NCBI GenBank assembly: GCA_009903775.1
Contig: WYEM01000016.1
Coordinates: 1 to 53,466, forward strand
Length of the DNA stretch: 53,466 nt
Reading direction: 5' to 3'
From: Nitrososphaerota archaeon
GTDB lineage: Archaea; Thermoproteota; Nitrososphaeria; Conexivisphaerales; Conexivisphaeraceae
This document shows positions 18,775 through 30,588 of this stretch, piece by piece; the stretch's first letter is position 1; each line of letters begins with the position of its first letter. The position numbers were made by a program, and so were the translations under genes. The notes beneath the pieces are model-generated. The model had not been told where the DNA came from, did not search any database, and saw nothing but the letters and a program-made list of their open reading frames with translations.

Positions 18775-19740
18775 TCAGGTATGATGATCGCCGCTGAACT
18801 GTTCGATCGGATCGATCTCGACCTCCACCATCCCCCGTATGAGAACCAGCGCCAGCAGCAGCCTGAACTCCTCCCTCCTCAGGCTGCCCCTGAAGAGGGT
18901 GGAGAAGGAGTGGATGAGCGCCGCGAGGAGGAAGGCGAAGAGCCTGAAGATCCTCTTCGTGGAGCTCGTGAACAGGAGGAAGCTCTTGATGTCCCTGTAG
19001 GACGTCTCGATCGGCGCCCCGATCCTGTCGTAGAACCTCAGGACGTCGCGCCCCGGCAGCCCCAGGTTGGTGGCCCTGGCGACGTACCCGGGTCCCCGGC
19101 GCCGGTGGCCCGCCGGCTCGAGGCCGGCCCGGCGCCGGCTGACTATCAGCCTGAAGTCGACCTGCTCGCCCTCGGCCAGCCTCCTGCTCCTCGTCCTGTA
19201 GTGCCCGTCGAACTCCCCGCGGATCCCGACTTCGCCCACGGAGTGGAACCCGGAGTCGAGCGCGACCGTCCTTACCCTGAACCCCAGCGATAGCACCTGC
19301 TCGATCAGCGACCTGACAATCCCGGCCTCGCTCATCCCCCTCACGTACGGCGAGAACGCGAGCAGCAGTATCCTGCCCCTGTATTTCGTGGTGGCGGTCG
19401 CGTAGTTCCAGGAATATCCCTTATCGCCGGATCCCAGGCCCTCCACGTATTTGCCGTAGTACCTTATCCCGGTCCAGTCGAGCGATAGATCTATCCTCCT
19501 GACCTCCTCCAGCATCTTCGCGGATATCCCCCTGACCTCCTCCAGCACGTTCCCGATCACGCTGAGCCCCTGGTCCTCCACGTAGTTCCTGACCGTCTGG
19601 GCCGACACGCCGTACGTCCCCGATTTGCCCTCCACGGAATCCCTCCAGATAGATGCGGAGACCAGGGTCCTGGCCGCCGCATCCCCCTTCCTCCCCCTGA
19701 AGCTCAGCAGGGAAACCAGTTTATACCCTGCCAGCCGCAC
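18775..19740 (-). CDS. ISH3-like DDE transposase
   Basis: 321 residues. The DDE pattern fits ISH3/ISC1439-type transposases: first Asp in LSLDWTGIRYYGK, second Asp in ALDSGFHSVGE and the Glu in IGAPIETSYRDIKSFL, followed by a hydrophobic helix with RIFRLFAFLLAALIHSF. The frame is intact, so the element may still be active. GTG 19740 is used for lack of a better start; a TATA-like gtataaac lies just inside this start, so the real start may differ. Confidence 0.82.
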   Translation of the reverse strand: MRLAGYKLVSLLSFRGRKGDAAARTLVSASIWRDSVEGKSGTYGVSAQTVRNYVEDQGLSVIGNVLEEVRGISAKMLEEVRRIDLSLDWTGIRYYGKYVEGLGSGDKGYSWNYATATTKYRGRILLLAFSPYVRGMSEAGIVRSLIEQVLSLGFRVRTVALDSGFHSVGEVGIRGEFDGHYRTRSRRLAEGEQVDFRLIVSRRRAGLEPAGHRRRGPGYVARATNLGLPGRDVLRFYDRIGAPIETSYRDIKSFLLFTSSTKRIFRLFAFLLAALIHSFSTLFRGSLRREEFRLLLALVLIRGMVEVEIDPIEQFSGDHHT

Positions 19741-19833
19741 CTCATCCCGGCGAGGTGGTTTGCCATTCTGGGTCGCTTGGATGGGAAACCATCCTCGCCA
19801 AATGCGTTTCCAGCTCGGGATCGCCGGGGATGA

Positions 19834-19852
19834 ATTTTGGGTCTACAGTGAA
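19834..19852 (-). repeat. Terminal inverted repeat, right
   Basis: Exact reverse complement of 18717-18735; it marks the upstream end of the IS relative to its transposase. Confidence 0.8.
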
Positions 19853-19920
19853 GGGCGAGGGTTCCCCGGGGGATCCCGGGGCGGGGTCTCGGCGGTTGCG
19901 CCCCCTTGGCGGGCGCTACT
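19849..19920 (-). ncRNA. TnpB right-end (omega RNA) scaffold, 5' part, interrupted
   Basis: GC-rich, hairpin-forming sequence at the 3' end of the tnpB fragment. It is nearly identical to 30429-30498 on the plus strand, with a few substitutions and a 2-nt length difference. In IS200/IS605 elements this region becomes the scaffold of the TnpB guide RNA. Here the terminal hairpin is broken by the ISH3-like insertion, so this copy should no longer yield a normal guide RNA. Confidence 0.6.
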
Positions 19921-20398
19921 CCGCTGTGGTCCACAAAGTAGGAGAGCGGCCTCTCTAGCGTTGTTGGCATCGAGCCCGCGCCGCGCCTCAGAATGTTCAG
20001 TGCCCCGTTCAGGTCGCTGTGCAGCCTGTGCCCGAGCGGGCAGGTGACCACTCCCCTCGGGCCCCTCGCCACCTTCGTCCCGTGGATAGCGCAGTGATTA
20101 GAGGTGTTGTACTCAAGGACCTCGTACACGCGGATGCCGTACTCCTGCGCCTTCAGCTCAATTGTGTTCATGAGTTCACGATACCTCCACAGGTTGGAGG
20201 TGAGCTTGTTTCCATTATCCTGCGCTATATCGTGAGGATACCCGAGGTATATCTTAGACGCCCCGAGCTCCCAGAGGCCCCTCACCATGTGGTTTGCCAG
20301 GTTCCAGTACAGGTGCGCCATGCGCCTCATCAGCTTCCGGAAGAGCCTCCGCCTCCTCCTGTTGAGCCTCCGGAACTCCTCTATTACGCGCTCGTCAA
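19921..20398 (-). pseudogene. tnpB: Truncated tnpB (C-terminal part)
   Basis: C-terminal third of an IS200/IS605 RNA-guided nuclease: the arginine-rich helix FRRLNRRRRRLFRKLMRRMAHLYWN, the RuvC-II Glu in YEVLEYNTSNHC, a zinc-ribbon remnant in which one Cys is His (CAIHG, later CPLGH), and the RuvC-III SDLNGALNIL. RuvC-I and the N-terminal wedge/REC regions are missing: upstream sequence reads as an MFS fragment on the other strand. The frame remains open to 19704 across the IS end. Non-functional as a nuclease. Confidence 0.8.
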
Positions 20399-30152: not shown

Positions 30153-30390
30153 CTGCGCTCCAAACGATATTAACGTTGGGAGTGAGGATGTATGTAGAAT
30201 TCTAGCGAGTAATGAACTATTATTCCCCGAGGTAGGCGCCCAGCAGTAACCGAGGGATCCTGACGCGGGCCTGTCGCAGTACCTCATGGATCCCGAGGCG
30301 CATCTCGGCGGTTAACGCAACCTCCGCCGTGATAAAAACGACAAGCCTAGCCCCCTCTGGGGACGGGATCGTCCCACCCTGTAGGCCGGA
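30153..30390. other. Spacer upstream of the MFS gene
   Basis: About 240 nt without a recognisable gene. Its A/T-rich part (30160-30225) probably holds the MFS promoter (gatatta near 30166-30172). The remainder is GC-rich with short stops in all frames, and may be residue of the former TnpB element. Confidence 0.4.
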
Positions 30391-30407
30391 GCGAAAGGCT
30401 TTTAAAC
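30391..30407 (+). promoter_or_regulatory. BRE/TATA promoter before the orphan TnpB-type RNA
   Basis: gcgaaa (BRE-like) followed by cttttaaac (30399-30407) gives a near-ideal archaeal core promoter. Its centre lies about 26 nt upstream of 30429, exactly where similarity to the TnpB right-end scaffold begins. Confidence 0.6.
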
Positions 30408-30428
30408 AGGGCCCTGTCAGGATGCTCA

Positions 30429-30515
30429 GTAGCGCCCGTCAAGGGGGCGTAACCGCCGAGACCCCGCCCCGGGATCCCGGGGAACTCTCGCCCTTCAGGG
30501 CGGGGAGGGGGTCAG
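30429..30515 (+). ncRNA. Orphan TnpB-type guide RNA scaffold (omega RNA-like)
   Basis: About 87 nt nearly identical to the scaffold at the end of the tnpB fragment (19849-19920 plus 18699-18716), here uninterrupted. It contains a terminal hairpin (cgccc-ttca-gggcg) and ends in ggtcag, the point after which the guide begins in such RNAs. No tnpB frame precedes it, but a BRE/TATA sits at the right distance. The following bases from 30516 would be the guide. Either a solo right end left by excision or a transcribed stand-alone RNA. Confidence 0.6.
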
Positions 30516-30588
30516 CCATGATGAACGGGAGCGTACTGCCAGCCGTAACAGGGATAGAGCCCGCGCGCTCGGCTCGATCGGGCGTGCC

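Follow-up and report, generated by a model that had tools for sequence, protein, structure and literature searches.

How a guide-RNA scaffold of the TnpB type comes to stand behind its own promoter with no tnpB beside it is the question raised by positions 30429-30515 of the window (the whole 53,466-nt stretch of DNA analysed here). A sequence-only reading had described a scaffold of about 87 nt, nearly identical to the right end of a tnpB fragment in the same window, with a BRE/TATA promoter placed for a start at the first conserved base. It saw there a domesticated, stand-alone guide RNA that could direct a TnpB or a nuclease-dead relative encoded elsewhere, and possibly an undescribed system. 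The description was borne out: the letters read GTAGCGCCCG...GGGGGTCAG (GTAGCG...GGTCAG), no tnpB adjoins the scaffold, and the identity to the 3' end of a truncated tnpB at 19849-19920 (minus strand) is 93% over 72 nt. The BRE gcgaaa lies at 30391-30396 and the box cttttaaac at 30399-30407, where TTTTAA ends at 30405, 23 nt up to the first base of the scaffold at 30429. The positions given for scaffold and promoter therefore stood, but the extent did not: the conserved unit starts at 30334 rather than 30391 and has an IS605-type left end, which is also found in six sister copies in the genome.

We conclude that the locus is very probably a non-autonomous miniature element of the IS200/IS605 type (IS1341-type), a palindrome-associated transposable element (PATE), which arose when a tnpB-bearing relative lost the tnpB coding region. 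Of its parent, the element has kept the hairpins at the two ends, the tnpB promoter and the scaffold in full, as follows.

30329..30333, plus strand: adjacent motif GTGAT (TAM / left target site), the left boundary of the homology in 7 of 7 copies
30334..30515, plus strand: complete miniature (PATE-type) element, 182 nt (174-192 nt among the copies in the genome)
30346..30367, plus strand: left-end near-terminal hairpin, which aligns with its counterpart in full-length tnpB elements
30369..30390, plus strand: block (TCGTCCCACCC..GGCCGGA) present in miniature copies only, mean pairwise identity 0.89
30391..30407, plus strand: BRE/TATA promoter (gcgaaaggcttttaaac), homologous to the tnpB promoter GAAAGCTTTTAAAC
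30429..30515, plus strand: guide-RNA (omegaRNA) scaffold, 87 nt
30429..30452, plus strand: leftover 3' coding end of tnpB (codons for VAPVKGA*), read alike in full-length copies
30485..30505, plus strand: right-end hairpin, which is also the last stem of the scaffold
30516..30535, plus strand: guide region, that is, flanking DNA, originating from an old antisense tnpB relic
30288..30575, minus strand: decayed tnpB 3' end, split by the element into flanks 30288-30333 and 30516-30575
19704..20330, minus strand: truncated tnpB of the same family, with the scaffold remnant at 19849-19920

The order of left-end hairpin, miniature-only block, BRE/TATA, spacer of 22-23 nt, scaffold and right-end hairpin is the same in all seven copies compared within the genome. 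Each has [TC]GAT immediately to its left, and the right terminus is TCAG (30512-30515 in the window), with TCAT in one copy. Separately, the right-end hairpins of the tnpB elements at window position 19849 and at L023 (C91:545) are both split by apparently one other insertion sequence, which suggests hairpin-targeted insertion at these two places.

Copies were counted from sequence searches of the host genome (1.45 Mb in 117 contigs, 80% complete), in which positions 30391-30560 matched 34 places. Five other places matched from promoter through right end, a further set (query 38-125) fell on tnpB 3' ends, among them the fragment at 19849-19920, and about 15 short matches covered the right-end hairpin only. 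With the six sister copies, which share the left half of the window copy, there are at least seven miniatures: the window copy, C6:7074, C102:40348, C48:20894, C11:27171, C11:15527 and C61:3220. The genome holds a size series of full-length, 180-nt and ~46-nt forms. The family was found in none of 19 other genomes of the order, and a scan of named genomes gave no match to the miniature junction. The ~46-nt class comprises about a dozen single-hairpin remnants (L017, L018, L019, L021-L022, L024-L028, L030), in which the left terminus is fused to the right-end hairpin; they resemble the 52-bp terminal-only PATEs of Haloquadratum (PMC3119063). One of them, L019 (C26), is all that stands at a site occupied by a full-length tnpB element in L012 (C32), the right sides being 98.8% identical over 1.5 kb; the pair represents either strain variants or a duplicated region.

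The parentage of the miniatures is visible in their full-length siblings. These carry the same left hairpin, followed by TGAAAGCTTTTAAAC, 23-25 nt, and then the ATGC.. of tnpB, and the scaffold of the miniatures opens with GTAGCGCCCGTCAAGGGGGCGTAA, the last seven tnpB codons plus stop (VAPVKGA*). Because the siblings share the left hairpin and promoter, and the scaffold contains the end codons of tnpB, the miniature is best read as the inherited tnpB promoter joined to the tnpB 3' end. The promoter, which had been taken as a sign of domestication, is in this comparison not newly acquired. Full-length and miniature scaffolds are 90-95% identical. The ~22-nt block of the miniatures occurs in no full-length element of the genome, and so the exact parent is not present in it. 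tnpB elements with the same left-end and promoter layout occur in a relative, the MAG Thaumarchaeota archaeon EvPrim.Bin21, in which the matches have coordinates agreeing with those in G006, a genome of the same order. The same MAG holds L105 and L100 (G061 C15:3326 and C2:3702), the one a lone scaffold lacking the left end and the other a decayed copy with a AAAGCTTTT box shortly before the scaffold, which are possibly independent losses of tnpB.

The geometry of the promoter points to a transcription start at or near 30429. The TATA median distance to the start site is 23 bp in Thermococcus kodakarensis (PMC4247193). A TATA-like box lies at equal spacing in five of the six sisters, so that promoter and spacing are retained in 6 of 7 copies, the exception being L016, which lacks the TATA. 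The pattern GRANRGCTTTTAARC occurs once in the window against 0.02 expected by chance, a pattern that was itself derived from the family. In the full-length siblings, the TTTAAA-to-ATG distance of 23-25 nt matches the spacing of the miniature promoter and suggests that their tnpB mRNA may be leaderless; TATA-like hexamers also cluster 23-25 nt before candidate starts of the long ORFs in the window, in small numbers. Selection on the spacing is not claimed: the 22-nt spacer had no indels in six copies against about six elsewhere, a difference, read from the copy alignment with no formal test, that is not significant. L003 (C102:40348-40538) has its TATA box twice (cttttaagccttttaag) through a duplication of 9 nt, yet the near copy retains the 23-nt spacing.

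The family is a mobile element that multiplied after the deletion of tnpB, because its seven copies have a common junction. Mobility was also seen at a single site: the sister copy C6:7074-7254 has an uninterrupted counterpart in both same-genus genomes (G001 and G002), to which its joined flanks align over 400 columns at 79% and 77% identity, respectively, through an apparently open coding frame. Since this alignment is gapless, the C6 copy inserted precisely, with GAT on one side and the guide on the other, and interrupts a gene. Insertion thus took place after GAT without target duplication, beside a motif that reads [TC]GAT in 7 of 7 copies. Relatives yielded no empty site for the window copy. 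Its joined flanks, however, align straight across the junction with a tnpB 3' end on the opposite strand, and for 7 of 8 tnpB references none of 200 shuffles aligned as well. As the flanks are collinear with antisense tnpB, the alignment indicates that the window copy is inserted into an older, reversed tnpB relic. Loss of tnpB in situ at the window locus was considered and rejected, since the flanks and the sister copies show an already shortened element inserting.

It follows from this insertion that the window guide is decayed tnpB antisense sequence. A fresh guide there could have matched sister tnpB genes; compared by eye, it now differs from the tnpB of L008 at about 6 of 20 positions. 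The sequence-only reading had proposed looking for guide matches after 30515. Neither its own genome nor those of the same genus contain a second match to the guide (30516-30535) at up to three mismatches, and an exact search of viral contigs gave no target. The guides differ in all seven copies. The predicted empty-site substrate for the window guide would be GTGAT followed by CCATGATGAACGGGAGCGTA.

Conservation of the scaffold as an RNA was analysed in an alignment of 22 sequences, comprising 15 scaffolds from the host genome, six from relatives and one divergent copy. The first stem, the closing stem and the right-end stem are retained, and 97.1% of the cells of the 25 consensus pairs are paired. 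Two-sided changes occupy 12 cells, compared with 3.8 in shuffles and 1-2 with the structure slid, and the covariation is seen in the first and closing stems. The window copy forms 25 of 25 pairs, five other solo scaffolds at least 23 of 25, and L016 20 of 21. The layout is that of an omegaRNA, in that the scaffold overlaps the tnpB 3' end, stops at the right end and is directly followed by the guide.

Covariance models from Rfam also touch the locus. HgcC (RF00062) matched 30443-30526 with 27.8 bits, under its 50-bit family cut-off, and sot0042 (RF02656) gave a weak, local match at the right end with 20.5 bits (cut-off 88); both are sub-threshold and positionally sensible, falling on the right-end hairpin. 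The 3' half of HgcC is the same IS605 right-end hairpin with its GGTCAG terminus, and the HgcC model matches further right ends of these elements, both in the rest of the genome and in relatives, and also gives hits in three control genomes of archaea (M. jannaschii, H. volcanii and S. acidocaldarius). HgcC itself appears from such matches to be a TnpB-type guide RNA, which would place a long-known archaeal "high-GC" RNA family among the TnpB guide RNAs. In T. kodakarensis, HgcC1-3 lie within transposase genes and HgcC4-5 outside them, and all five are expressed (PMC4247193). As HgcC4-5 are expressed apart from transposase genes, expressed guide RNAs apart from tnpB are probably not new in archaea, though not so named.

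Candidate partner proteins are encoded in the same genome, where full-length tnpB genes with intact frames (L007 and L014) coexist with the miniatures. The TnpB of L007 (P0001) matches OrfB_IS605 and the Cas12f1-like TNB domain. Its usual RuvC-II glutamate is replaced (IYLGYP), and a glutamate stands seven residues ahead of the first cysteine of the zinc finger (EYNTSNHC; E-x6-C), which fits the alternative RuvC-II glutamate position described in PMC10711439. This archaeal protein combines the alternative glutamate with an unusual zinc finger, which has C..H in place of CxxC. VDLGIN, the E-x6-C alternative glutamate and SDLNGA are all present in the family TnpBs inspected, a D/E(alt)/D set. 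Because of these residues, a live nuclease is the simpler reading of the family TnpB, and the nuclease-dead partner proposed earlier is not indicated. Neither mark of a TldR was found: the inspected TnpBs have not lost their RuvC catalytic residues, and the guides are not conserved between copies, the window guide having no second match at up to three mismatches in its own and the same-genus genomes. Searches for the Y1 transposase TnpA (PF01797) were negative in the host genome (80% complete) and in nearly all of the relatives covered.

The system is not wholly undescribed, as had been thought possible, since miniature IS605 elements with tnpB 3' ends are already known. PMC3119063 describes PATEs of Haloquadratum walsbyi, including HqIRS71 and 52-bp terminal-only forms, which share near-terminal IS605 palindromes, multiple copies, no target duplication and no transposase gene with the elements here, and which are likewise reduced down to single-hairpin forms; HqIRS71 also retains part of the tnpB C-terminal region. 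The elements here fit that description, having end hairpins in common with full-length tnpB elements and being, at 174-192 nt, too short to encode a transposase. The promoter-to-guide-RNA arrangement is without mention in the available part of that report. A PATE-like element of Halanaerobium hydrogeniformans has the same layout (left-end hairpin, last 58 nt of tnpB and complete right end), but is a single copy with only 28 nt of left end and no promoter described (PMC7290912). HgcC RNAs share the right-end hairpin and GGTCAG but occur in other hosts, with the sub-threshold score given above. The sotRNAs and archaeal omegaRNAs of IS200/IS605 (RF02656; PMC12558985, PMC8303175) overlap the tnpB 3' end as here, but are processed from tnpB transcripts, as in haloarchaea (PMC8303175), whereas the window element has no tnpB and its predicted primary start is the first base of the scaffold. 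Precedents exist both for IS605 miniatures that keep a tnpB 3' end and for archaeal guide RNAs expressed apart from transposase genes (HgcC4/5). The unusual feature here is that, in a family of several copies, the tnpB promoter is so positioned that the RNA should start with the first base of the scaffold; we found no description of such a multi-copy fusion in the open-access literature searched, which is not proof of its absence.

Other explanations of the locus were weighed against these results. A host-domesticated guide RNA, directing a TnpB or a nuclease-dead TldR-like protein to a chosen target, would explain the promoter at the scaffold start and the intact scaffold structure. Set against it are seven copies with seven unrelated guides, the absence of the family from the 19 other genomes of the order, the empty site of a sister copy, the position of the window copy in a tnpB relic, the lack of a second match to the window guide in its own or same-genus genomes and the D, E(alt) and D of all family TnpBs inspected. 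We regard this reading as very improbable, and for the family it is largely refuted. Hardly more probable is a mobile promoter for neighbouring genes, in which the scaffold would be passive right-end sequence: its transcript would have to cross three stable stems, and downstream of the window copy there is only a transposase relic, even though bacterial miniature elements with outward promoters acting on neighbours are known (PMC10969869).

A dead fossil, in which a deletion left promoter and scaffold behind by chance and neither is transcribed or used, deserves more weight, and we consider it somewhat unlikely. The many ~46-nt remnants, the vanished TATA of L016 and the failure to find TnpA are what such a fossil would leave. 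Multiplication after the deletion, with one junction common to seven copies, at least one insertion that the genus relatives lack, a promoter with its spacing intact in 6 of 7 copies, and scaffold pairing retained despite divergence all count against it.

For a miniature element of the PATE type, a mechanism can be proposed from scaffold similarity and from the known behaviour of TnpB, which cuts the vacated site so that the element is not lost and which can process its own RNA (PMC11870625, PMC10278001). Transcription from about 30429 would give a ready-trimmed guide RNA, the guide being the DNA to the right of the insertion. TnpB from full-length siblings may load this RNA in trans and, once loaded, could cut the empty site, so that retention of the miniature would be favoured. 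TnpA supplied in trans would move the element, and the miniature would then be a parasite of both proteins of its parent. We suggest, tentatively, that the family is a compact guide-RNA gene in which the scaffold is the very start of the primary transcript and the TnpB of relatives is used for the element's own retention, with no tnpB transcription or RNA processing needed. The seven copies have seven guides, their insertion motifs are known, and so is the empty site of at least one, which makes this directly testable. If the RNA is transcribed and loaded, a non-autonomous transposon would exploit its parent's transposase for movement and its parent's RNA-guided nuclease for retention.
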